Source: Phalacrocorax aristotelis
Lineage: Eukaryota > Chordata > Aves > Suliformes > Phalacrocoracidae
Length of the DNA stretch: 64,000 nt
Direction of reading: 5' to 3'
Assembly (NCBI RefSeq): GCF_949628215.1
Contig: NC_134287.1
Coordinates: forward strand, 23,567,501 to 23,631,500
A program made the translations under genes and the position numbers. Of this stretch, positions 11,930 through 64,000 are shown piece after piece. The notes beneath the pieces are model-generated. The model was not told where the DNA came from. It ran no database searches and saw only the letters and a list, made by a program, of their open reading frames with translations. Position 1 is the first letter of the stretch. Every line of letters begins with the position of its first letter.

Positions 11930-12050
11930 CACCAGAGCTATAAACTGCAGGGCCATAAATAGCCCTCATCCGCCTAGAGGCGTCAGTTACACAGGTGACC
12001 TGTCAAGGTAATTTGTTGGGAGTCTCAAATTTAACCCGCAGGAATTCATA
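11930..12050. promoter_or_regulatory. Candidate regulatory element downstream of NKX6-2
   Basis: The block contains CCATAAATAG (CArG/MEF2-like), CAGGTGACCTG (an E-box fused to a TGACCT nuclear-receptor half-site) and TCAAGGTAA (ERR/SF-1-like) within about 70 bases, at the edge of the CpG domain. This is motif reading only; conservation could not be tested. Confidence 0.3.
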
Positions 12051-12163
12051 AAACGCAACCTCGGCATCTGAAGCGAACCTGGAGGCTCCCGGGAGGCGCG
12101 GGGAGCCGGGCCGCCCCCCGACGGCGTCGCACCGCGGGGCGGCCCGGGGCGAGGGGTCCCGCC

Positions 12164-12193
12164 GGGGGGGGGGCGGGGGGGGGGGCGCGGGGG
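12164..12193 (+). repeat. G-run with quadruplex potential
   Basis: Long runs of G broken only by single C or CGC, giving several tracts of five or more guanines within 30 bases. Confidence 0.75.
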
Positions 12194-12289
12194 CTTCTCC
12201 CCGACTGACTGCGGCTGAGCCTGCCCGAGCCCGGGGCGGCCCCGGCCTGCACAGGGGGGCTCACGGCTGGGCGCAGACTGCCGACCTCC

Positions 12290-12540
12290 TCGGGGCGCAT
12301 TTCACTTAGGCAGGTACGGAAAGGAGCAGGTGTGAATAATCCGACTTTCAAGTGCGCGTGGGGTTTTTTTATCCTGTTGTCATTTTCCCTTAGGAGCCAG
12401 GAAAACGGCTCCGGTTCTTCGCTGCTGTTCCAGCGTCGTGTCTCGGTACGTTCAAAGCCGGGGCGAAGATTAATTTCTAAACTTGATTTACTCCGTCTGT
12501 AACCGTGGTACAACTCGAGTGAGGTCTCGCCAACCCACCG
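12290..12540. promoter_or_regulatory. Candidate enhancer island within the CpG block
   Basis: A balanced-composition stretch flanked by extreme GC. It holds AGGTGTGAA at 12328-12336, a T-box half-site, and TCAAGTG at 12348-12354, the core recognised by NK2-class homeodomains. It also has several AT-rich homeobox-like words near 12465-12490. Function is inferred from motifs and position only. Confidence 0.28.
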
Positions 12541-12568
12541 CTTCCAGTGAGTAGGAATTTGCAGGACT

Positions 12569-12581
12569 CCCCCCCCCCCCC
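12569..12581. repeat. Poly-C tract
   Basis: An uninterrupted run of 13 C bases in the CpG block. Confidence 0.85.
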
Positions 12582-14094
12582 TTCCCCTGCAATGAGGAGC
12601 TGCCCTGACAGCAAGGCAAGGATCTCCTCAGATCGGAGCGAAATCAATCAAAGCGAGCGACGCGCCTGGCCCGCAGTGGCGGCACCTGCAGCCCGGGGGG
12701 GTGGGGGCGCCGCTCGGGGCCGCCAGCGGCAGCGCCGGGCCGGGTCCCCCCGGGGGAGACCCCGACCCCGGCCCAGCCGCGCAGCCGGAGCCGCCGGGCC
12801 GGGCCCGCCGCCCCCTGGCGCGGCCGCCCCCGGCTGCGGGCCCCGGGAAGGGGCGGCCGGGCCCGCGGCTCCTGCGCCCCGGGGCCGGCCCCGCCGAGCA
12901 GAGCCGCGCTGCCCCATCCGCCCTCGGTGCGGGGAGCCGCGGGAGCGCCGGCCCCGCACCGCGCTGCGGAAGGCGGATGCAGGACGGGGCAGTTGCGATG
13001 CGGGAGGCATCGGGCCCCGCACCTGCCCCGGGGGGCCCGGGCTGCCGCTCCGCTGCGGGCAAGGGAAGCGGGGCCGGCCCGCAGCGCGGCCGCTGCGTTC
13101 CCCCAGGCTGCGAGGCAGGAGCTACGGCACGGAAAGAAAAGAATCTCTCATTCATTTTAAAAAAAAAAAAATGGCGAAAAAAGCGGCTTGACAAGGAAGC
13201 TGGCTTACACCCACCAGGCCTCGAATACGCCCCAGAGGAGAAAAGCAGCGCCCTGGGCAGCTGCGAGGCACCTCGACGGCTGCGTAATTACCTGGGTCTC
13301 GTCATGGGCAGGTCGTGAACACAACCTGCGGGTGCGGGCCGGGGCTGCCGCTCCCAGGAGCCCAGCTGGAAGGCGAGGGAGGGAGGTGGTGCTGTAGACC
13401 TCCGCCGGTAAGCTCGTCCAGTTCGCCCTCGATGTTCTGCAGCGGCCGGTGCCCGGGCAGCGCAGTGGGGCACGTCCCAGCCCCTGCCTCCCGCCGCCCC
13501 GTCACCACCGCAACGCCCTTCCGTGCCAGCAACCGGCGCGGCCGCGGCGCCTGCACAGGGCACGGCAGGGCTGCGCGTCCAGCCCGCCACGCACCTCTTC
13601 TTTCCGGGGCTGGGGGCGCCCCGGGTCGCGCGTTCCCCTGCGGCAGGGAGCCCCGCTCCCGGCGGTGCCGTCGGAGCAGCCGGCCTCCGTCGGGGCGCAG
13701 GGCTCGGCCGGCTCAGCCCGCCGCCCCCCGCCTCTTCCCTCGCGGAGCGGCGGCCGCCGGGGCGGGGGCTGCGGGCCCCGAGGCTGCGGCGGCGCCCAGC
13801 AGCAAGGCCCGGGGAGGCCGGTGCGTGGCCCCAGCCCGCAGCGCCGCCGGAGCCGGGGGAAGCGCCGGCCCACGGCCCAGCGGGCGGGTCGGGGGAAAAG
13901 AGCGGCCCTAAAAATTAGCGCCCTCCCCCCCCGCCTTCCACTAGTGAAGCAAAAGCCAGGAATCCCCGTGCCCCGTGTTCTCCCGGCCAAACCCAGGGCA
14001 AAGCCTCCCCCAGCTCGGCCGCGGTGCCCCGGGCACCCAGCGGGACAGGGACCGAAAGTGAGTAATGCAGGAAGAAACTCGCTCAAGGAGAAGC

Positions 14095-14681
14095 TTGTTA
14101 AATAATTTATTGATTTATACAAAGTCTGTCCAACCCGTGTGGAGACATCATTTGATCCCAATGTAAAATCAAGCATCTGTTTTTTCTCTCGTGTTTTTCT
14201 GGGTTGTTTTCTCTTGATATTATTAAGCATAAAGTCCAGAGGCAGGAGAAATCAAACTGCCAAAACACTGAGGGAGGGAGTGAAAGAAAACAGCCATTTT
14301 TACGCTAGAAATATACATCACAAAATCTGAAATTTACTATATACAAAGTGGCTGAGCTTGGATTTGGTGACCCATACAAAACATAACAAAATCTGATTGT
14401 TAGGAGCAGGAAATTGGCAAGGAAGCTTAAAGAAAGAAGGGCAAACCTTAAAGGGACACAAAACAAAAACCAAGAAGTTGGAAAAATTCCTCTGAAATTT
14501 ACATCGATGAGAAGGAAAATAATTTCATAACTTATTCTGTAAAAAATATATACATTTCACATACATCTTAGGCTGTACAACACACCACTTCAAACATCCA
14601 GTTACAATTCTCTGTCGTGGCGCCTACCACAGTGGCTCACCCAGCCGCGGCCACCCGCAGCAGCCATCGGTGCCCGTGCCC
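14095..14681 (-). other. NKX6-2: NKX6-2 3'UTR
   Basis: AT-rich sequence immediately after the stop codon, sharply different from the GC-rich flank beyond about 14090. A minus-strand AATAAA lies at 14111-14106, right at this boundary, implying a 3'UTR of about 580 bases. The left end is approximate. Confidence 0.7.
14106..14111 (-). terminator. NKX6-2: NKX6-2 poly(A) signal
   Basis: AATAAA on the minus strand (tttatt on plus), about 570 bases after the stop and at the AT/GC composition boundary. Confidence 0.65.
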
Positions 14682-16676
<1,995 letters not shown>

Positions 16677-17395
16677 TCATCAATGAACGCGGGTCCTTCC
16701 CCAAGCACGCCGGCAGCCGCTCTGTTGTAACCCCGCGCCCGAGCGCCGGCCGCGGGCGGGACGGTCTCTGCTCGCAGGATCAAAGCAACAGCAAGTACCA
16801 AAGTTTGCTGGGAGCAGGAAAACCCCGGCGCTTCTCCGCCCGCCCCCGCAGCTCGGCGCCGCGCACGGCCAACTTCCAGGCTGAAGCACGGAGACAGCCC
16901 AGTCGGGGCAGCACGGCAAGGCGGCGGAAAGGGCGTCCCGGGGAGATCAGCCCCCCGCCGGCGGCGCGTCCCCGGGCGGGCTGCGGCTCCTGCACGCAGC
17001 GCGACGGGGGGTGGGGTGGGGGGTCGGGTCGGGCCGGGCCCGGCGCGTTGGGCGCCGCGGGGCTGGGCTGGGCTCCGCGCCTCGCCTCGGCCGCGCGTCC
17101 CGGCGGCGGCAGCGGGGGACCCTCCGCGCCGCGCCCCGGGGCGCAGATAACCGCGCGGGCACCTGCGAGCTCCGCGCCCATTGGGCGGCCGCCTCCCCGC
17201 GCCGCCGCCGCGGCCCAATCGGCGAGCGGCGAGCGCCCCCACCCCGACACGTCACCGCCGGGTCGGGCGGCCCCGGGCGCCGTGGGAGCGCGCCGAGCCG
17301 CACGTGGCCGCGCCGCCGCCGACGGGACCCCCGCGCCGCGCCGCGCCCCGCCCCGCCCGCCGAGGTCAGCCCCGCCGCGCCCAGCTCCGCTCCGC

Positions 17396-17416
17396 TCCCC
17401 CCCCCGCCCCCCCCCG
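17396..17416. repeat. C-rich tract in NKX6-2 upstream region
   Basis: Two runs of C separated by one G, about 740-760 bases above the NKX6-2 start. Confidence 0.8.
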
Positions 17417-17695
17417 GCGAGGCACCGCCGCCGCCCCGGCCGCTTGCGGCGCGACCCGCCTCCGAGCCCCAGAGGGCACGGCGCTGCGGGACCCGCCCGC
17501 GCCGGCGGGGCCGGGGGGGCGGCCCGCGGGGGCCCGCCGAGCGCCGCTCAGGTGCGGGAGGACGGCGGCTCCGAGCGGGAGGGGCTGCGCCGTACTTCCC
17601 GTGGCTCGGTTGCTCTTTCGTCGGGCGACCGGTTCCGTCTTCTGTTGCGCGCCAGCCTGTCCCCTTGTATTCGAGTCGAACGTTGAAAGCCCGGT

Positions 17696-17703
17696 TATAA
17701 AAG
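17696..17703 (+). promoter_or_regulatory. Canonical TATAAAAG on the plus strand
   Basis: TATAAAAG flanked by GC-rich sequence, pointing away from NKX6-2. It resembles a TATA-box core promoter for a divergent transcript. No protein-coding exon is recognised downstream, so a non-coding RNA or a chance match are both open. Confidence 0.3.
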
Positions 17704-17830
17704 CCGTCGTACGTCCTGGGCTGCGTGGCCGCTCCGCTCGGCGGTCCTTGCCGCCGGTGCCGAAACGCACTGGCACCGGAGGGGTGCTCCCTTCGGGACC
17801 TGGCGGGGGGGGGGAGAGCCCCTCGTCTTC

Positions 17831-18480
17831 GAAGGGAAAAAAATGGCTGTTGCATCATCGCGGAACGAAGCTCGTTCGCACAAACAGAATTTCCACCGGT
17901 ATTCTTCTTAATCGAAAACAGGCTGACTTGTCAAGAAAAGAAGAATTCGGATTTGAGGTTTTTTTTGTAGAAAACAATCCTGGAAACGGGCTTTATAGTG
18001 CATTCTTTGCCTTAGAACTGCCTTCTCCTACGGTTTTGAAGCATTGCTAACCAAGGAAAATATGAACCACAACAAGTGGGGAATTAAAACTTTTCCGAGT
18101 GTTCGCAAAGTAAACATGAATCGACTGCACCACATCAGAACAATTACTAAAAGGCGCGTCCCTTTGGGTGCAGTTATGTCTACCTGCAGAACCGTTTGCA
18201 GGTGAATTAGGGTGTCGCTTAACCTGAAACAACAGCCCTAATGCCGAAGGAAGTTCGGGAACGATGACTCGGGCGCGATCAACGATCTTTATTTTCAGTC
18301 GCTGTAACAGCCTGTGTGTCTTGGTACGTGCATCCTCATAAACAGCTTAAGGTACAAACGTGAGATTAAAAAACGACGCTGCCCTGAAGAAGGTTTAATA
18401 AGCGACTTCATCGCTTTTTCCTCTCTCTATTGTAAGCGGCAGCAGCACAGAAAGCCGTAACGGGTTTACCCGGCTCTCTC
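17831..18480. other. AT-balanced gap inside the CpG domain
   Basis: About 650 bases of balanced composition between GC-rich blocks. It contains SOX/homeobox-like ACAATTACT near 18139 and the E-box inverted repeat at 18182-18203. It is a candidate regulatory interval of NKX6-2 by position. No coding signal. Confidence 0.4.
18182..18203. repeat. E-box inverted repeat
   Basis: ACCTGCA at 18182-18188 and TGCAGGT at 18197-18203 are exact reverse complements, and the symmetry continues inward (AAC/GTT) with one unpaired base. The right arm runs into CAGGTG, a ZEB/E-protein site. Confidence 0.6.
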
Positions 18481-20930
18481 GACTGAGCGCCACCAGCTCT
18501 GCCCAGTGTCATCTCTGCAACGCCTGCGTACGCCGGGAAGGAGCTGCCGGTGCCATCTGCTCTCCGCCTCCGGCGCGGCTCGGGATCGCGGAGCCGCGGG
18601 AAGGTGCTGGAGGCGGCCCGGCGGCGGGGCGCGGACGGCCCCCGGAACGCCGCGGATCCGCCGGGGGTTGCGTCCGTCTGTGGCGGTCCGTGCTTCGGCC
18701 CGGCCCGCCGCCGCGGGCGGTGCCCCCGGTGCAAGCCGGGGTAGCCGTGCCTCCTCCCGCCGGGCGCGCCGTACCCACCGCCCGCCGGGATTTCGCCTCT
18801 GAGCGCGAACTCTGCAGCACGGAGCGGTCCGGCTCGGCGAACGGGAGGGCGGCCTCTCCGCCCCGCTGCGGCGGGGGCCGGGCGCTCACCGACCGCTACG
18901 CGCAGGCAGCGGCGGCCGCCCCCCAGGAGCGGGCCCCGCCGGGACTCCGCCGCCCGGTGCAGGGGGACCGATGGAACGGGGTAAGAGCGCGGCCTCCGCC
19001 ACCCCGGCGCCAGCGGGGCAGGACCGAACCCCGCGCCGCAGCCCGGCCGCACCGACGGGCTCGTTTGCAGCCAGGCTACGGTACCGGCGGTAGGGGTGGG
19101 CCGGGGGCGCCCCGGACCCGCGCCCGCGGCGGGGCGGAGCGGAGCGCAGTGCCTAGCTGGACGGTACGGGCCTCCTGCCCGCTGCGAGGTGGCAGCGGGG
19201 AACCCGGCTCCCCCGGAGACACCGGAGTGTCGGCGTCCGCGTTCCGCCTCCCCCCCCCACCCCCGCTCCCTTGGGACGCTTCTCGGCTCCTGCGCCCGTC
19301 GCAGCCAGGACCCGACGCGCGTTCCCCCGGCTGCCGCCAGCGCCCGCGGCCGCTGCGGCGCTCTCCGGGGACCCGCCGCCCGGAGCCCCGGCCAGCGGCG
19401 GGCCTCCCGCAGCGCGGCCTCCGTGCCGGCGGCCCGGCCGAGCGAGACCCAAGGGGCAGGTCGGCAGCTTGCCTCCCGCCCCAAGTCCTCTGGGTTAGAA
19501 TTCACGCTAAAACAGTGCTCTGAGGCCGGCTGACAATTTATATCTGTCATCAGTGACGCTTGTTGCACATTACTGGTACGTTTGTCCTGTACATTGACGA
19601 CTTCTGCAGTCTAATACCCCTGTTTTTCCAGATGGAAACCTGTGGCGTTTGTCTCTGCAGACCCCGCGGCCTGATAAAACTGCTTTTGTGTCTTTTCTTC
19701 CAGCCCTCCGACGAGGGGTGGCACCGAGGGAGGCTTCCCGGCTCCGGCTCCCCGCCCCCGGGCGAGCAGTGGGTCCCCTCCTGCCCCGCCGCTCCCTCTC
19801 CCCGATGCCGCTGGATCCCCTGCTCTCGGCCGGACTGCCCCCTCCCGCCGGGACTCCAGGCTGCTCCAGGTCCAAGCGCTCCCCAAGTCGTAAGCAAACC
19901 CCGTTTCGGCTGCGGAGGCCGTGCCGCTCGGGGGCGGCGCAGCGGCAGGGTAGCCCCGCGACGGCTGCGAGGCGGCTGCACCGCGCGCTCCGAGCGCCGG
20001 TCCCGGCCCGGAGCCCCGCCCGGCGGCCGCTGCTCTCGCCCTGGGTGGTCTCGGTACCACGAGGTGGGGTTTCGCCGCTGGGAAGAGGCCGCCCCTCGGA
20101 GCCCGCTGCCCGGCGGGGTGCCGGAGCGCCGTGCTGGCGGGGCACCGTGCTCCGCCGAGTCCGCTGCCTGCGGCCGGGCGCGTTTTGGCAGAGGACTTTG
20201 TGGAGTGGAAACAAAACGGTCTGAGATGTTTCTGGTTACACGTACATCCCACTGCGGAGCGGCGCCGGATTGACCTGGGAGCGCTACAGCCCGCTCTGGC
20301 GTGCGGACGCGCCGCCTTCGCTTTGTGAGACGCCGCTTCGTGGAGGTTAATTTGGGCGGAGGAGAACGGGCACGGCCGTGGCAGCGCCGGGTCACCCGGC
20401 CGAGCCGCCCCCGCAACGGGGCCTTGCCGCAGTGGGGTGCACGGCGCGGCGGGTGTCCCTCCTGCGGGCCCGGCGGAGCGGGCCCGGCCCCCGCCGCGCC
20501 CCCCGGCCCCGCAGCGCCCCCCGCCCGCAGCGCCCCCCGCGGCGCGGCCCCCCCCCCCCGCCCCGCAGCCCCCCCCGCCCCGCAGCCCCCCCCGCCGCCG
20601 TGGCGGGCTGGCGGCGCCCCCTGGCGGCCCCGCACTCCCCGGCGCCGCCGCCGCCGCCCGAGCGCTCCCGCCGCGCTCCCCGGGGCCGCGCCGCTCCCCC
20701 GCCGGGGCGGGAGGCCGGGGCGTCGTGGCGAGCGCCGGGCGGCGAGAGGGGGCGCGGGCCCCCGGCGCGAAGGCGCGCGGGCGGAGGCCGGCAGCGGAGC
20801 TCGGGGGAGCCGCGTGGTGCCGCCGCGCCGTCCCGTGCAGCGCTCCCGCTCGCATAGCGTGGTGCGGGGAGCCGGGAGCGCCGTCTCCTTCGGCTGTGAG
20901 GCCACGGTGTGTTTCTCTTGGGCTCTCCTC
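18481..20930. other. Upstream CpG-rich block, no supported gene
   Basis: Strongly GC/CpG-rich sequence in two lobes, about 18500-19490 and 19720-20900, separated by a more balanced 200-base stretch. Overlapping ORFs of 386 to 451 codons exist in several frames and on both strands. Their composition (Ala, Arg, Gly, Pro) is what GC-rich DNA gives by chance, and none resembles a known family. It is best read as CpG island, possibly the promoter of an unrecognised transcript. Confidence 0.6.
20497..20600. repeat. C-rich minisatellite-like array
   Basis: Imperfect repetition of a unit close to CCCCGCAGC followed by six to eight C bases, about 15-16 bases long, with several degenerate copies. It has strong quadruplex potential on the minus strand. 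Confidence 0.65.
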
Positions 20931-20999
20931 GATCATGAAGGCGGCGGTTTGTCAACGCATTTGGATGCAGTTCCAGGTTGGGCAGAGGATTCATTTCTA

Positions 21000-23900
21000 C
21001 CGTTTAAAAGTAATAAGCGCTTTGTTTTGCCCCTGACATGAGTAACCTTTCTTTCAAAGGACATGGAAGCAAAACTGAGATCGGTAACATCAAAGTAATC
21101 TGAGACTTACGCACCCGACATATTCAGAATGGAGTGTTGTGATACACAGTCCAGTATTAAATGCTGCAGTACAGATAACTGCAGGCAAGTTCTGTTTAAC
21201 CTTCCAGTACTTTTTGTCATGCATACGGCTGAAGTATCCTTTCTTGCAGCTTCTGTGCAGCTGAATATGTCTGAGAGGCTAGGTACTAAAAGAAAACAAA
21301 CCCCGAATAAGAATAATCTGTGTTTTACTTTTATTGGGTGCAAATCCATGCGCTTTCCGTCTCACTTTATGGACTACAGAGAGGTCAGATGCGCAGTACG
21401 TGAAAGCTTCCCCCACTGTGCTGTTCGTTATTCAGAAGTGCAGCTGTAAATGTCCGTGTGAAAACCGAGCGATTGGGAAGGGGGAGCTCAGGGCAGCTCT
21501 CTGCACAGCCTTCTTTTTCGGAATTATTCTGCTGCTGGTGGAGTGAAGCTAGGTAGGGGAGGGAAAGCGGTATCGTTGCGTGGAGTTACAAGAGAGCAGG
21601 AAAACCCATGTTGAGGCTACAACCATGCTGCCTGCCTGTGTTCCTGACAGTATGGATGCTGCTTCTTCACAGCATACCTAAAAGAGTTCCTTGTGTTTAA
21701 AAAATGAGGGGTGTTTTGGGCTAGAAATGCAGTCGCTAGAAAACAAAGTCGTTTTAGACTAGATGATCGCTGTTGAACCATCTTCACAGGATGATGTATG
21801 TCCTGTGAAAGGCTATATTTAATAGTTTTCATTATGATCCTTGGCACAAAAAGTAGGAATATGCTAATGGTGCAGAGCTGAGAGTCCTCATTCAGTATAA
21901 AGTGGCACGCAAGAGAAACTGGATGACCTTGAGAACAGAGTAACAAAAATGTGAAGAAACATAAAAACGCAAAAATGACATTATTGCCTTAGAGTGTGGT
22001 ATAGTTATAGTATTGTACTTAGGGCAAAATATGAAACAGCATTTCATACAGCTGTGGCAGAATTCAGGCTCTTAAATTTAGGGGAGAGATTTGCAGATTT
22101 TTTTTTTTTCCCATGGGCTTGAAATTGCAGGGAATAAAAAGTCAATGATGGTGCATGCCCAACCATCTGGGCAGAGCTGGCCGTTTAGGTGCTTGGCCTC
22201 TGTCTGCTGGAGATGCAGACTAAGGTGAAGTCAAATGAAGAAAATCAGTTACATAACAAGGGATCAGATTCAACAATCTGGGAAGTCCCCTTCTCTCTCA
22301 AACTCTCATTTTCTGTTTCCCCCGCTCCTCTGCCTGCTCAGGTGCGCTGTCCTGTCCCTTCTTCCTGCTTTGGAGAGGCACCGCAGAGCCCAGGGCAGCA
22401 GAGGAGCACAGGGATGCTGTGGAGGAAATCAGCCCCTAGCAGGGGGTCCGCAGGTGGAAATCCTCTACCTAGTCGAGTATCCGGGGGCATCCACTGTGTT
22501 CGCTGTTCAGTCATACGCACCCAGTAGTTTTGACTTTTTTTTAACACTTCCAGGCAAAGTCTCATGAGGAGTCTGCCTGCAGGTGTAAGGCAGACTGCCA
22601 CACCCCCCCACCCCCACCCCCCCCGGTCACGTACTGCCAGCGTTAGCTCCGTCATATGGTCTGAACAAGGGAGAAGAGCACACGGCAGGGAGTACTGAGA
22701 GAATCCCAGGGCCGGGAGGAGTCTGTAACCTTCCCAGCTTCCCCTGCCTCTCTGATGCAAGCTGGGCATCTTTGTGCTCACAAGGTCATTTACTGAAAAC
22801 TGAATCCACTGGCAGAAAACCGTGATGAAGACCAGAATGCACAGTACAGAAATGCCACTGGTCAAGGGGTCCTTGCATGCCACAGCGAGAAGGAATATAT
22901 AAAGAAATGCCCACTGAGCGGTATAATTTAGGGATACTGTACTCTGCCATTAAAGGGGAAGCATATTTGCAGAGGAAATACATTTTGTTCTTCTTCATGA
23001 TGGCTGGTGGCTCATTCTGTTTATACACACAAAAATGTCCAATAAATAAACTTTCCAAGATTTTGTGAAAATTAATTCCTAAAAGATATGGGAAGAAAGA
23101 AAGGCAACAATGTGTCCTCACTCAAGAGTTTGTGTGCATAAGCTGCAGGGTTTTTTGTCTTCAATCTGTCATTGTGAACAAAGCAGTACAAAGTATTTTA
23201 ACAACTGTCTGGTAGTCTGCGTTTTTATAGCTTTCTAATACAATGCTCCTAGTTATATCCTTAAATTGGAGTATTGTATTACAAGGTTGCATAAATAAAG
23301 CCAGCTGAGCACTCATTTACATGGAGACTTCAATTTGTTCTTACACTACGTTTATTTTTGTAAGGCTGGAAAGAATCTTTTCCTAAATATTATATCATTC
23401 TTCTGCTTAACAATAAAGCATTGGTGTCTCGGTGTCAAAAGCTAGTTATTGCCAGTGGTGCTTAAGCCCAGAATTCCTGGTTGGCAAGTTTATAGTCTTG
23501 TGTCCTTTGCCAGTGATATTTGAGAGTCAATTTAGTGCGTTAAGAAACTGATTTGCAAACTGTGTCACAGCTGAGGGCTGCAGTTCCCCCTCCACAGAAT
23601 TCAGTCTCTGCCCCGTGCTGTAAGGTTGAAGAAATCACCCTGTAATGAAGATTTTATGTCTTGTTACCACCCTTCTGAACTGTTCCAGGACTAGGAAATG
23701 CCGCCGCACTGCAGTCAGACTACTGCTGCTGTTCGGCCGTTTCTGTGGCGGGCCCCGAGCGCCCCGAAGGCCGTGCGGGCCCTGGTCAGCCACAGCGGGG
23801 ACTGCCCTCCCCACCTCCCCACCCCTGGCCCCAGAGCCCTAAGCTCAGCCCTGGGCCTTTGCTCCTGCTGGCCTGGTTTGTGCGCTGCGGGGCTGTGCCC

Positions 23901-56035: not shown

Positions 56036-56396
56036 ATGGATGCATTCCAAGCACCTGAAAACGGTTCGCTGTTGTCCAGTTCCTCTGGTCCTGCCAGATG
56101 GGATCCCTTCCGTCGTCCCTTGGACTCCATCCAGCCCTGGCACTTCAGGCTGCTGGCAGCAGTAATGTTGGTGGTGACCTCCCTGTCACTTGCTGAGAAC
56201 CTGGCTGTAATCCTGGTAACTTTTAAGTTCAAGCAATTGAGACAACCTGTCAATTATGTTATAGTCAATTTGTCTGTGGCTGATTTCCTGGTCTCATTGA
56301 CTGGTGGCACCATCAGCTTTCTAACCAATCTAAAAGGTTATTTTTATATGGGATACTGGGCTTGTGTGCTGGAAGGATTTGCTGTCACATTTTTTG
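56036..56396 (+). CDS. OPNVA: VA opsin exon 1 coding part (TM1 to start of TM3)
   Basis: 361 bases, ending after the first base of codon Gly121, donor gtaagc. It encodes the N-tail with NGS, TM1 (SLAENLAVI), TM2 (NLSVADF) and the start of TM3 with CVLEGF. Both its length and phase match the first coding exon of rhodopsin genes. Confidence 0.93.
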
Positions 56397-58841
56397 GTAA
56401 GCTTGATTTTGTTTGTAGTTGTATGTTCATTTCCTTCAAAAAGTCCTTCCGCGTGTTCTAGTAGCTATCCTGCAGCTTCCCATCACTGGTTCTTTCCCCA
56501 GTTACATATATTCTGTAGTGGCTCATGTGTGCGTGAATAACATGTATCACTATCTCTGTGATGTATCAGTGGCTTGTCGCATGTATACTGCTCATTGAAT
56601 GTGTTTAATATAATGAGAAACAGCTTGCTAATAGAATAACAGCATTGTGGGGTTTTTGGTAAAACAATGTTAGGAAAAAATTCACACGTGTCCCTATTTT
56701 CAAGGTTTGTATATAGGTGTGTGCATATGTGGATAAATAAGAGAGAGGAAAAGAATTAGTGGGTGCTTTTAAACTGTGGAAAATATCAGGCCACAGAAAC
56801 ATCTTACGTTAGCTATGCTCCAGTGGTTCTGAGGAACCATGACACACCTGTAACAGTCACCCCTCACACCTACATCTGTTTGTGATTCTTTTTTCTTGGC
56901 TCTGTTTTACTAACTGCACAAAAAGTACTAAAAGTACTCTAAAAGGGAAAATCCTCACCACTTAGTTCCCTATGTAAATACACCTCTGCAGAATAAATGA
57001 GAAAATAGTTTAAAAAGTGACATCTACTTACGTGAGATAGACATTCATTCCTGCATCCCTGTTCCTGATTCCAAAGCTGCATAGTGAAGACAGCCTTCTA
57101 ACCCTTGTCACTGCTCTGAACAAAACACATGGCTGATCCTCAGCCTGAAAAGGAGCCCTACAGTTGCTCTCAGCCTGGTTAAGCTGCGCAGAGGGAAGGT
57201 CGGTGAGGGACAGTGCTGCTAAATCAGTTTGTGGCATGTAATCCATGTCCTGTGGAGAAAGGTCAGGTTATTTCAAGATTTTGCTGGCCAACCAGGTGAT
57301 ATGTGCCTAATAAACTGATAATTTGATGTTGTGGGCAGTTGTAGTTTAGAGTTTTATGGCAGGCTGAAATGTAACATTTCTTGCAAAGATAAGGTTTTTG
57401 CAGATATATCTTAATTTGTTAATTTGGAAGCTACACATAATTTACAGCTTTTCAGACTAGAACCAAATTTAAAAAAAGAATTCATCATCAGTTAAATGGC
57501 CCGATTAGCTGCTTGGTTTTGTGGTCTTTATACTGTAGACTGACGAACCAGACAAATATGAAAATCTTGCGCTCTTAATAAATATGAGACTAATGTGGAT
57601 AAATTGCAAATCCTTTCACAACTTGGGTTGATGGAAAAGGTGCCTGATGTGGTGGGTGGTCAATCACTGGAATGGGTTGCCCAGAGTGTTTGTGGAGTCT
57701 CCAGCTGTGGAGATATTCAAAACCCAATGGAACTTGGTCCTGGACAAGCTTCTGTATGGACTGTGCTTGAGTGCATGTGGGGGTTGTTGAACTAGATGAC
57801 CTCCAAAGATGCCTTTCGACCAAAGCAATTCTGTGACTGTCTGATGTGCAACAGTGTTTGCTTTTGAGTGAATCTACCCAATTTTTGATGCTGACTGTGT
57901 TTTCTTACTATAGGCATTGTTGCTCTCTGGTCTCTGGCTCTGTTGGCTTTTGAGCGGTACATTGTGATCTGCCGCCCATTGGGAAATATGCGCTTGAGGG
58001 GAAAGCATGCAGCTCTAGGCATTGCCTTTGTGTGGACCTTTTCCTTCATTTGGACCATTCCACCAACAATGGGTTGGAGCAGTTACACCACCAGTAAGAT
58101 TGGAACTACTTGTGAGCCTAACTGGTAAGGCCACTTTTGCAGAGTATGGTAAGGGAATGAAACTTGCAGCTCAAGACATCTCAGGGGCAGGAATTTAAAG
58201 GAAAGGTTTATAGATGGTGTACATCTCTGCAAAAATGCATGTACAGAAAGTTGCAACAAAACTGAGCAAAATTTGCCAAACCAGATTTTAAAAAAATAAA
58301 AAATTCTAAAGGGATGCTCTTCCATCTCTAACTAAAATGACCATCCTATACCTTGTGCTTTTTGTCAGGATTCAAAGAGGACAAAGAGACAGATATTTTT
58401 CACAAGACTGGACAAAACCCTGAGCGACCTGGTCTGACTCTATAGCTGACTCCACTTTGAGCAGGAGGTTGGGCTACATGTCCCTTCCCACCTGAGCTGC
58501 CCCACTTTGTCCTGTGGCCACAGGATCCTCTCCTAGCCCACGGCCAGCGGGATGGCCCGAGGCTCCATCTGGTGATATGACTGAGGTTGTAAAGAGGCAC
58601 TTTGACTAAAGACAGTTGATAAAAATACTGGTGACAGCTTTGAGGAGCAAAATTAATACTTCAAGAAAATAGTAAGAACACATATTAGTAATACACACAC
58701 AATGTATTTTGTGTTTTATACAGGTACTCGGGAGCATATACCGACCACACGTACATTATTGCATTCTTCACCACCTGTTTTATAGTGCCTTTATCGGTGA
58801 TTTTGGTATCCTATGGAAAACTGATGCAGAAGTTAAGAAAG
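56036..58841 (+). CDS. OPNVA: Vertebrate-ancient (VA) opsin, exons 1-3, 3' part outside the window
   Basis: A retinal-binding Gt/Gi-type GPCR of the VA opsin family, expressed in the avian hypothalamus as a deep-brain photoreceptor. Coding segments are 56036-56396, 57914-58124 and 58724-58841, with GT/AG junctions and matching phases; they give 230 codons. Residue numbers coincide with bovine rhodopsin with no gap: Asn55, Asp83, disulphide Cys110 and Cys187, Schiff-base counterion Glu113, and the DRY-like Glu134-Arg135-Tyr136. An N-glycosylation site lies at Asn9 (NGS). TM1-TM5 are present at roughly 37-61, 73-96, 110-133, 153-173 and 203-225. TM6, TM7 with Lys296 and the C-tail are absent; the donor gtaaga at 58842 shows the gene continues. 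ECL2 (GWSSYTTSKIG, TTCEPNWYSG) is what points to VA opsin rather than pinopsin or a cone opsin. The start at 56036 has a strong context and gives rhodopsin-like N-terminal length. Confidence 0.92.
56397..57913 (+). other. VA opsin intron 1
   Basis: A 1.5 kb intron. Its last quarter is a CR1 fragment ending only about 70 bases before the exon 2 acceptor. The rest is AT-rich with no further feature seen. Confidence 0.88.
57640..57842 (+). mobile_element. CR1 LINE 3'-end fragment
   Basis: Plus-strand sequence with the usual avian CR1 tail order: GGTTGCCCAGAG, then a GGAG.TATTCAAAACC block, then TTGAACTAGATGACCTCCAAAG, and the terminal ATTCTGTGA-type repeat. It is 5'-truncated, diverged and non-coding. 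The left limit is approximate. Confidence 0.85.
57914..58124 (+). CDS. OPNVA: VA opsin exon 2 (TM3 to ECL2)
   Basis: 211 bases between the acceptor ttactatag and the donor gtaagg. It reads IVALWSLALLAFERYIVICRPLG early on and ends within Trp191 after TTCEPN. It carries the ERY triad and Cys187. A donor-like gtaaga inside it at 58094 would truncate ECL2 if used. Confidence 0.93.
58125..58723 (+). other. VA opsin intron 2
   Basis: A 599-base intron, gtaagg to cag. No other feature is seen. Its position, inside codon 191, differs from the rhodopsin intron after codon 177. Confidence 0.9.
58724..58841 (+). CDS. OPNVA: VA opsin exon 3 (ECL2 to TM5 end)
   Basis: 118 bases after the acceptor ttatacag. 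It completes Trp191 and continues YSGAYTDHTYIIAFF through TM5 to GKLMQKLRK, then donor gtaaga. Retention of the following intron would add 26 residues and stop at 58920-58922. Confidence 0.93.
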
Positions 58842-60772
58842 GTAAGAAGAAGCATTATAAGTAAACTTTTAAAATGTGTAGGTATGCAAACATTTGGAAT
58901 TTTTGTGTTTAATTTTCTGTAAAGATCAGCCATAAGCAGATCAAATTTCCAGTCAGCAAATGCACTCACTTATCAGCCTTTCTTAGATAATTATCCTTAC
59001 ACACAAATTCATGCCATGGTTAGAAAATGTTTCTTCAAAGTCTGCATCACTTATCAGTACATCTCATTAACCAAACATCATACAAATGAAAGCATGTCTG
59101 CCTCATAAAGAAACTGGATCGCCTGATACTGGTTTATTTACAATTGTACTTCAGTTCAACAACATTTCTTAAGACTCAAACCAGGTAAATCAGAATTTAG
59201 CTTAAAATTTTAAGAGTGCTGGCTAATACTCTATAACACAGGCAGAATAAGATGTAGCACTTGTAAATAATATAATGCTGTTTAGTAAATAAAATATTAG
59301 ATTGTCCAGGAAAATTTAAAATTTAAATTTAAAATAAAATAAAATTTTATTTAATGATTATGTTGACCTGATCCAAAAAAGAACCTGCCAAAAGTGAAAA
59401 AGAATAAGAAAATAAAATAGGAAAACTCCTATTTGGGACAGGATTTTTGGACAATATTTTGGGACAATGTTGTCATTTCTATTTACTGCAAAGCTGCCTT
59501 GTCTTGTTTCATTGTTGCAGTAGTAAGTTCAGTAAATTTCTTCAACTTACTGATGTTTTTAAAGTATTTGGAATAGTCAAATGCTTGTATCTATTCTGAG
59601 TGTCGTTCTCTCTAAAACAAAACAGAAGGGAAAGGCAAAAAATACTTTATTTTCATGTTCAAAAATACAGATTGGTACATGCATACTTCAGGTAACATCG
59701 TGATTCCTCTAAATGGATTTTTCTTGATTTCCTCCAGGATGCATTATGGGGAGAGAAGGTTAAATGTCTGGGGGAGGTTGATTTCAGTATTAAACACAAG
59801 AAATTTCCCAAGTTGAATGTCAGCTGCAGCACAGGTGCATCGCTGCTCACAGTGAGGTAGCAGAGTGTCTGTTGATGTGAGGGTGGGAGACGAAGGTGTG
59901 GAGATGCTTGAAGAAAATAATTGTTCATGATTCAGAATCTCCTAAGATAACTTGTAAAACTATGATTCTGTTATTCCAAATATCGGGAACTTTTATGAGT
60001 ATTTTATTTTCCCCTGTCCTAACCTACCTGCAGAGGAAAAGGAATGAAGAGAGAGAGCAGGGGAGCCAGACCTCCCTGCTGCTGATGCAGCCCTCGCTGC
60101 TGCCTGGGCAGGCGATGCAGCCCTTAGGGAAGGAGCTCTGCTGCTTGGCTTGGGAGGGTGAGGACAGCAACCCCAGAGCAGCCACATCTCGGGGCTCCGG
60201 CTGCCTGGGACCACCCCCGCTGGGGGCATGCACAGCGGGTGGTAGGTGTCCCTCCCCACAGACGGGCGGTCACAGCACGGCCCCATCCTGCGGGGTGGGA
60301 AAGGGCCACCTCCAGGAGGCCGTCCCTGGGAGGAAGCCCATGGGTGGCCTGGCATGAAAAGAAGGGACATTAACCCAAAGGAGGGGGTATGGAGGAAACA
60401 AGACCACTTGCCAAGCATCCAGCACCGTGATGCGCCTGCCCAAGCTGTGCCTAATGTGCTACTCAGACGCTTCAGGAGGTGCACAAATAGGGCCATTTCC
60501 TTCCCTCACAGCCACTTAAGAGGCTGGAAGGTTAAACTAAGCAGGTGAGATGAGGAACAAGGAAGGCTACGAAGGAAAATGTCACCGTCAGTCACAGCAG
60601 AAGCCTGTGAATTCTCCGTCTTGCCGTTTGGGTGAGGTCAGGATGTCTTCTGGAAGACTGATCTGTGCCATGTCGTAGGTTCCAGCATTGACTTGGAGCC
60701 ACGGTGGTGTGATCTTGCTAGGCTGTCTTTCTCAAACCTCCCTCTGTTATCCAGAAAGAATAGCAGTAATGT

Positions 60773-60790
60773 TAAAAAAAAAAAAAAAAA
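60773..60790. repeat. Poly-A tract
   Basis: An A run after gtaatgtt, with a T run about 20 bases downstream, giving a small A/T inverted pair. Confidence 0.75.
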
Positions 60791-61741
60791 GAGAACCACG
60801 ATTTTTTTTTTTCAAGTGGTGTGTTTCACACTGCCCTTGCAGCTCAGTGACCTAGCACCACACAGCCAGGAAACGCTGGGGCAGCCTCAGGGCACCTCAC
60901 CACAAATGATTTAGCCGTAGCTATCTGGCTTGTGCCAGTCCTTGCCGTTGGCTTTTATAGAGAGATTGTCTGAGTTGGCCTCTATTACATGTAACAGCTT
61001 AAAACAGTCTGACATAGAAAAGCTAACTGGCTGTGATATGTTCTGTAAATTTATAATGAATTGCCATAAGACTATATTTCACAACTAAGCTAGTTTTTAA
61101 AAACCTGACTACAGTGAACAGGGAGAGACCCAGGCACCAGAACTGGGGTCTTACTGTTCTCAGCCAACCCTCTGCCTGGATTTTGACTGCCATGTCTCAT
61201 GGTTGCCCCAGTGCAGACTTTGTCCTGAGTGGCACTGTTTTGTCTTAAAGGCTGCTAGTCCCTGTGACCCCAGCTTTACAATGCCAATAGGAGCTTTCAC
61301 TATATCTGCAAAACTAATGAAAGAAATTAATCTTTAGGAAAAGATCTTATTAACAGTTTACAATGGAAAGAAATTATTATGGCAGCATTCCTTTGTTTGT
61401 AAGATAAAGCACCAGCACATGGTTCCTAATCAGTTTCATGTTCCCAGATATAGAGAGAGAAAGGAACCTACTGCCGTCCACAAAAAGCCATGGCTGAGAA
61501 AAGGGCCAGGCTGGTATGAGACAAAGATGAAACTGTTGAAAGCACAATCCAGGAGATTTTGTTCCTTCCCCAAGGTGATTGCACTTCTGCTGGAAGGGAG
61601 CCTGGGCTACTCTCTCTGTAGGTGCAGAGTATGTGAAGAAATGCTGTAGAAATGTCATATATTGGCAGGGAATATCTTAGCTTTGCTCAGTACCTAACAC
61701 AGCCTTCACTGATGTCTAGGAACTTGTAGGTATTATGACAA

Positions 61742-61782
61742 CTTATTATCATTATTATAATCATCATTATTATTTATTAACG
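61742..61782. repeat. ATT-rich microsatellite
   Basis: Repeated TTA/ATT triplets with CAT interruptions. Confidence 0.75.
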
Positions 61783-63178
61783 TTGTATTTTTTTTGTTAA
61801 AAATCGACATGAATTACAACTTTCTACAGAGGTAAGGACACACACACCCCTCCCCAGGAGGCACTTCTATACCTCTGTAAGTACTAAATATGTTAAATTA
61901 TCTGAGTGCAGTGCAAGGTTTATTAGGGAAAATGTCTCCATTCAGTTCTAATGTTACTGTGGAAAGCTAAAAGGCCAGATTACACCAAAAGTTCTTACTT
62001 TATTAGCATGTATTATTGCAAGACCTGCATCAGGTTTATCTTGAGCCATACAGAGCTATCATTAGTAACTTCCCATGTAAGCTAACATTGCGTAGCTGTG
62101 CTTTGTTTCACTAAATCGTCAGAAACAAAACAAGGATGTTTGCCAGAGACACATTGTTTGACATCACATAATCTCTGTTTCAACAGCTCTACCTAAGATG
62201 CTTGCATGATGAATGAGGGGAAGAGGGGAAGCATTCCTGCTTTAGATCTGGTGTCATTAGGTCATAGATGCTCTTCTGGTGAAGGCCATAAAGCACCACT
62301 GAGCTTGACGGGCTCTGCTGGTCGCTGCTGCTTAGTCTGGTCTAAATTCACCTATGGCAAGGAGGTTCCACAGCCACAGCAGAGTACCTGTATTGGACAC
62401 CTAGCTGTCTGCAAAGACTGTATGAAAAAGAAAGCGTTTGAATTCAGGCTCACTGTCTGCTTACGACTCACCAAGATGATCTTCTTTTTCAGTATTTAAG
62501 TCACAATCGTGCCTTCCGTTAAATCATTGCAATTACTGTGGGTAGGCATAATGGCAGGGGTAGACTGGGAGTTGGCTGAAAACTTCTCAAAAGGTTAGCC
62601 AAAGCTGACTTGTTACACACTGTGGATGTGGTGGTTAGAGGCTGGTCAGGGCTCAGGAACACCAAGAAGAGGCTGCAGGAGAGTGCTGGGGAGGCCAGCT
62701 TAGCATGAAGCCTTGGGAGCAGGTTGGGGCTTGGGTGCTGGTGGGGGGACAGGGACAGCTCAGCCTCCTTTCCTGCACCACCTCGCTTGGGGTTATTTCC
62801 CCTCTGCTGATGCGACCACAGCAGCCGTGAGCCTGTCTTTCCAAATTTCTGGCAGAGAAGAGTCTGGTCCAAGGCAAGAGCTTTTACTTAAAGCCAGCCC
62901 CTGACAGTGGCCTGAATGAGAACTTGGAAGAGATCTGAAACTGCTGACTTGTAAAAAGATCTCATAAGGACAATGCTGTGCTTGGGCCAACTGGTACAGA
63001 AGACAGTTTTGTAGGTAAGATTAAAGTTGGTTGGCTGTAAGACTGGTTCAAAGGTATATTTGCTTGTCATATCTGCCTTGTTACAGAATTGTGCTTTCCA
63101 TTATATTTTGCTGTACATTAACTGCTTGTCAGGACAGCAGCAAATGTATTTCACAAAAAGACCGGAAAAAGGGAAGAG

Positions 63179-63290
63179 AATCACAGAATCATAGAATCTC
63201 AGAACAGTAGGGGTTGGGAGGGACCTCTGGAGATTATCTCGTCCAACCCGCCCTGCTTGAGCAGTGTGCTCCTACCAGTAGAGACAAAAT
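63179..63290 (-). mobile_element. CR1 LINE 3'-end fragment, minus orientation
   Basis: It begins with the CR1 terminal repeat in reverse complement (AATCACAGAATCATAGAATC), followed by GGTTGGGAGGGACCTCTGGAGATTATC and GTCCAACC, the hallmark of avian CR1 tails. It is short and 5'-truncated. The right limit is approximate. Confidence 0.88.
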
Positions 63291-64000
63291 GTTCTCTAGC
63301 CAGCTTTCCTGCAAGCCAAGAAGTCTAGCTTTATGTGCAGATCCAGAGCTGCTGTAAGCTGAGGTAGCTCCGTTGAAGTTAGTGGTGCATGGCAAGTTGT
63401 ATCACCCAAAAATGTAGCCCTAATTTCTGTTTCTTTTATTTTAGAGGTAACTTATTGTTATCAGATGCTGTCAGTTGCTCATTCTGTTAGGGTCATTGTA
63501 TTCTGTTAGTTGGTATTCTAAATAGAGGCCAAACATTGTCTCTGATTTGACTAAAATAATTAGGATTACTTTTCTCACAAATGGAATTTAAAGGTATTTC
63601 TGCCCTGCCTTGGGGCACACTGCTGCAGCACAGATGAGGTTACCTGAGCTAAATTAACTTTTGTAAGGCTGGACAGCAAATGTGTGCTGTCACTTTGCTC
63701 TTCATGACTTGGCTGAAGCTACCTTGGGAGTGTCTCTACAGGCTGCAGTAATGCCTGACTGCAGTTAGATATCTACACAGTGATTGCTGTACTAATTGCT
63801 TTTTGCTCTCACTTTGACAATAAAAATATAAAGATACTTAAGCAAAGGAAAATTTACAGTATACAGTAATTCATGTTCATGAGCAGTAACATTAACACCT
63901 TGTGGTCGAGTAACAGCATCCTTATGCGCTGTCATACTCAAGAAGAGTAGGTTTTTCCGTCTAGCATGGCAGAATATTAGCCTGCTCACCAAATTCACTG

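Follow-up and report, generated by a model that had tools for sequence, protein, structure and literature searches.

An intact vertebrate ancient opsin gene in the avian gene order of Phalacrocorax aristotelis

The analysed stretch of DNA, here called the window, comprises 64,000 nucleotides (positions 23567501-23631500) of contig NC_134287.1 (C12) of the Phalacrocorax aristotelis genome, which is assembled into 352 contigs with a total of 1.28 Gb. Three exons of an opsin gene lie on its plus strand. Exon 1 (56036..56396) opens with the first ATG of its frame and runs through codons 1-120 and the first base of codon 121; it encodes the protein from the N-terminus to TM3, including Cys110 and Glu113, and it is open up to the donor TTG/GTAAGC (a slash marks the exon border). 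Exon 2 (57914..58124, acceptor TATAG/GCA, donor CTG/GTAAGG) contains codons 121-191 with the ERY motif, TM4 and the ECL2 with Cys187, and exon 3 (58724..58841, acceptor TACAG/GTA, donor AAG/GTAAGA) contributes codons 191-230 with TM5. Spliced together, exons 1-3 give 690 bases without a stop and a 230-residue opsin. Joining and translating them confirmed what an earlier note on this DNA had described, namely three exons at these coordinates with GT/AG borders and an uninterrupted frame of 230 residues. Intron 3 fills the remainder of the window (58842..64000) and ends at window-equivalent position 64048; near 63190 there is what we take to be a CR1-type repeat. The last two exons were read from DNA fetched downstream of the window. 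Exon 4 (window-equivalent 64049-64288, plus strand) starts 49 bases beyond the window end, is open and carries Lys294, and exon 5 (window-equivalent 65860-66090, plus strand), likewise outside the window and open, completes the frame. The five joined exons encode a complete protein of 386 amino acids followed by a stop, and all four introns are of the GT/AG type. The donor of intron 4 (CAG/GTACTG) is a poor match to the consensus and worse than the other three (GTAAGC, GTAAGG and GTAAGA).

The similarity of the encoded protein to opsins is far beyond chance. Its first 230 residues match the Pfam family 7tm_1 with an E value of 7e-37, and the closest PDB sequence among the best 60 of 577 matches is 9upm, a long-wave opsin construct (E 1.9e-51). 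The translation of exons 1-3 has C at residues 110 and 187, E at 113 and ERY at 134-136, so that Glu113, the pair Cys110-Cys187 and Glu134-Arg135-Tyr136 stand where the earlier note had placed them. Exon 4 supplies the retinal lysine Lys294 within FFSKTATVYNP, and the NPxxY motif is also kept in the full-length protein. All features looked for in an opsin (retinal lysine, Glu113, Cys110 and Cys187, ERY and NPxxY) are present, and the sequence thereby shows the components of a functional photoreceptor: the lysine, the counterion, the disulphide cysteines and the ERY and NPxxY motifs. The numbering had been said to match that of bovine rhodopsin exactly. Against a provisional bovine sequence, this holds to about residue 196 but not thereafter, where two ECL2 residues are absent; the bovine counterpart of residue 230 is residue 232 and that of Lys294 is Lys296, and the absence of the two residues explains why the retinal lysine is found at 294. 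The same slip of two residues is seen in the alignment to PDB chain 1f88 (query 14-226 versus chain 14-228). Site 181 of opsins serves as a counterion position. The protein has serine instead of glutamate at this site, which leaves Glu113 as the sole acidic residue at the two usual counterion positions.

With E 0.01 as the upper limit, a search of the genome for opsin-like sequences listed 133 matches, including the three window exons of the gene itself. Of the other opsin loci, nine (L043 to L054, three in two pieces) were examined. Those labelled pinopsin, RH1, RH2, SWS1, SWS2, two TMT types and OPN3 are all located elsewhere in the genome; we assume that these labels, and that of melanopsin, are correct. 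No row recognised as LWS occurred among the 133 matches listed, from which we do not claim that LWS is absent. Two of the loci have peculiarities of their own. Exon 1 of the SWS1-like locus L048 (C1:217961500-217970500, minus strand) reads RQPSTTSWVNIS at a point where RH1, RH2 and pinopsin have PLNYIL. This patch seemingly reflects two one-base run-length differences that are about 15-20 bases apart and cancel each other, and its origin may lie in a faulty assembly or in a genuine local frameshift. In the RH2-like opsin L044, exon 1 is followed by an apparent GC donor (G/GCAAGT), as read by eye.

The same search bears on the integrity of the gene. A decayed or non-expressed copy of vertebrate ancient (VA) opsin at this locus has a negligible probability: open frames in all five exons, GT/AG borders at all four introns and the retention of the functional residues that were checked speak against a pseudogene, and no second VA opsin copy is found among the 133 matches listed.

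For comparison with the window gene, hand-made models were built for eight of the nine examined loci, the melanopsin-like L054 being left out; these models lack exon 5, and those of SWS2, the TMT types and OPN3 are partial. Core identity to the opsins of the same genome was 52% for pinopsin (over 271 positions), 48% for SWS2, 45% for SWS1, 44% for RH2 and 38% for RH1, and 36-38% for OPN3 and two TMT rows, one of which consists of a single fragment and was used in the identity table but in neither tree. The values for pinopsin, RH1, RH2, SWS1 and SWS2 indicate that the window gene belongs in the wider group of pineal and visual opsins, and to this extent they favour the reading that it is another member of that group, be it pinopsin, parapinopsin, parietopsin or a cone opsin. 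Identity to a provisional VA opsin row from salmon amounts to 70% over 312 positions, and no other row exceeds 52%. The LWS sequence of PDB 8iu2 is only 38% identical, which argues against an LWS opsin.

Two trees were calculated. When provisional rows for salmon VA opsin, chicken pinopsin, catfish parapinopsin and bovine rhodopsin were included, the window gene grouped with the salmon VA opsin (support 100/99), and pinopsin and the visual opsins formed a separate group (94/95). Since these four reference rows are provisional, we regard the VA grouping as a lead rather than as a full test. Without them, support for a position of the window gene outside the pinopsin, RH1, RH2, SWS1 and SWS2 of its own genome and the LWS of PDB 8iu2 is moderate (83/86). 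Of the placement expected for a VA opsin as opposed to pinopsin or a cone opsin, the separation from pinopsin and the visual opsins therefore stands with moderate support, and the grouping with VA opsin depends on the provisional salmon row.

The position of intron 2, judged visually from the splice sites, also differs. It lies at codon 191 in the window gene, at codon 177 in RH1, RH2, SWS1 and SWS2 of the same genome and at codon 182 in pinopsin, and hence tells the window gene from pinopsin and the four visual opsins inside one genome. As none of the 12 papers listed, out of 752 found in a literature search on printed intron positions, named VA opsin, we take this position to set the window gene apart from the other types and not as a tested hallmark of VA opsins. 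A text search of the literature for the ECL2 peptides of the window gene returned no papers. The pinopsin of the same genome (L043) is the closest paralogue of the window gene, with the 52% identity given above, but differs from it in its locus on contig C18, in the position of intron 2 and in having glutamate at site 181. Pinopsin is rejected on these grounds, namely the tree, the intron position and the separate pinopsin-like gene on C18, and the visual opsins are rejected by the tree and, in the case of RH1, RH2, SWS1 and SWS2, by their separate loci with intron 2 at codon 177. For parapinopsin, the rejection comes solely from the provisional catfish row in the tree and from print; according to PMC4595237, parapinopsin and parietopsin were found in none of 48 bird genomes. 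Together with a gene order that belongs to another gene, this makes any of these other pineal or visual opsins a very improbable identity for the window gene.

The strongest evidence for the identity as VA opsin is the gene order. Upstream in the window, an open frame on the minus strand (15576..16676) contains an NKX6-2-like homeobox exon (Pfam Homeodomain, E 2e-10). In the PDB it is most similar to homeodomains of engrailed and DLX, and the best 60 of 72 matches include no NKX6 chain; the NKX6 label is our assumption and fits the printed order of neighbours. The surrounding region (12000-21000) is very GC-rich, and both of its strands contain long open frames that are probably due to chance. 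On the other side of the opsin, a Pfam model search of the genome reported a CFAP46_N exon on the same contig (C12:23738332-23738475, 32.4 bits at a cut-off of 27), 107 kb beyond the window end, as the sole match for that family. Between 66.1 and 104 kb, no CFAP46 exon was recognisable by eye among the best 45 of the composition-ranked open frames. A TCTN exon follows (C12:23756328-23756471, 37.7 bits at a cut-off of 22), and this family has two further matches on C15. Both placements consist of one exon match each, and the TCTN match does not separate TCTN3 from TCTN1 or TCTN2. In birds, CFAP46 is described as flanked by ALDH18A1 and TCTN3 on one side and by OPNVA, NKX6-2 and INPP5A on the other (PMC10445033). 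The order NKX6-like homeobox, opsin, CFAP46 and TCTN agrees with this printed order of the avian OPNVA region, with TCTN, CFAP46 and the homeobox gene in the expected places, and this agreement is independent of the provisional reference sequences. Gene order, tree and the position of intron 2 all support the interpretation as VA opsin that the earlier note had put forward. We conclude that vertebrate ancient opsin (OPNVA), an opsin of the ciliary type, almost certainly has its bird orthologue in this gene.

VA opsin has been reported in birds (PMC4595237) and is described as absent from mammals in PMC2781857 and PMC5800076. By analogy with its family, the protein would bind 11-cis retinal and absorb near 490 nm like chicken VA opsin, for which a peak of 490-491 nm is given in PMC3297396. 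Upon illumination it might activate a transducin-type G protein in neurons of the hypothalamus, in keeping with the ability of VA opsin to signal via transducin noted in PMC12145941, and the resulting hypothalamic signal could take part in the seasonal control of reproduction. The same paper states that a knock-down of VA opsin in birds raised GnRH1 and accelerated gonadal growth and the photoperiodic response. A faster response upon knock-down implies that it would be an oversimplification to describe the protein as a light sensor driving breeding. The gene is intact, complete and not novel, and it is orthologous and syntenic to an avian opsin that has been well studied. Our findings leave the current knowledge of VA opsin unchanged and provide a complete gene model, including exons 4 and 5, of a photoreceptor of the deep brain that is present in birds and was lost in mammals.

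The poor donor of intron 4 raises the question of isoforms. With intron 4 left in the transcript, the frame would run on for 20 residues and stop at 330 amino acids, compared to 386 amino acids in the spliced form, whose tail comprises 76 residues after residue 310. Retention might give rise to a short-tailed form of 330 residues, comparable to the short isoforms that VA opsin has in chicken and fish. SWS1 and SWS2 of the same genome have poor donors at the corresponding intron 4 as well, and so the donor of the VA opsin gene only hints at retention. It is conceivable, if rather doubtful, that this donor makes the intron-retained form the main product and so leaves the receptor in the hypothalamus without the tail of 76 residues. 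In protein blots of chicken hypothalamus, only the short isoform cVAS was detected (PMC3297396), and the short isoforms of fish are said to arise by intron retention (PMC2781857). According to PMC3297396, the short form of chicken failed to regenerate when produced in cells.

Compared with known systems, the gene resembles chicken VA opsin (OPNVA; cVAL and cVAS) in its neighbourhood, which PMC10445033 prints for the OPNVA of birds, and in its isoforms: chicken VA opsin has a long and a short form (PMC3297396), and both tails are readable in the window gene. The length differs, with a chicken open reading frame of 323 amino acids in PMC2781857 versus the 386 (spliced) and 330 (intron 4 retained) found here. 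Whereas the neighbouring CFAP46 has been deleted in galliforms, and also in geese and four other named birds (PMC10445033), the neighbourhood of the window gene has a CFAP46 exon. The VA and VAL opsins of teleosts belong to a different vertebrate class, the provisional salmon VA row sharing the identity of 70% over 312 positions. The zebrafish VAL tail of 74 amino acids (PMC2781857) is close to the 76 of the window gene. Salmon VA opsin was first given as absorbing at 460-480 nm (PMC2781857), and absorption at 505-510 nm is stated for VA pigments outside the birds, compared to 490 nm in chicken (PMC3297396).
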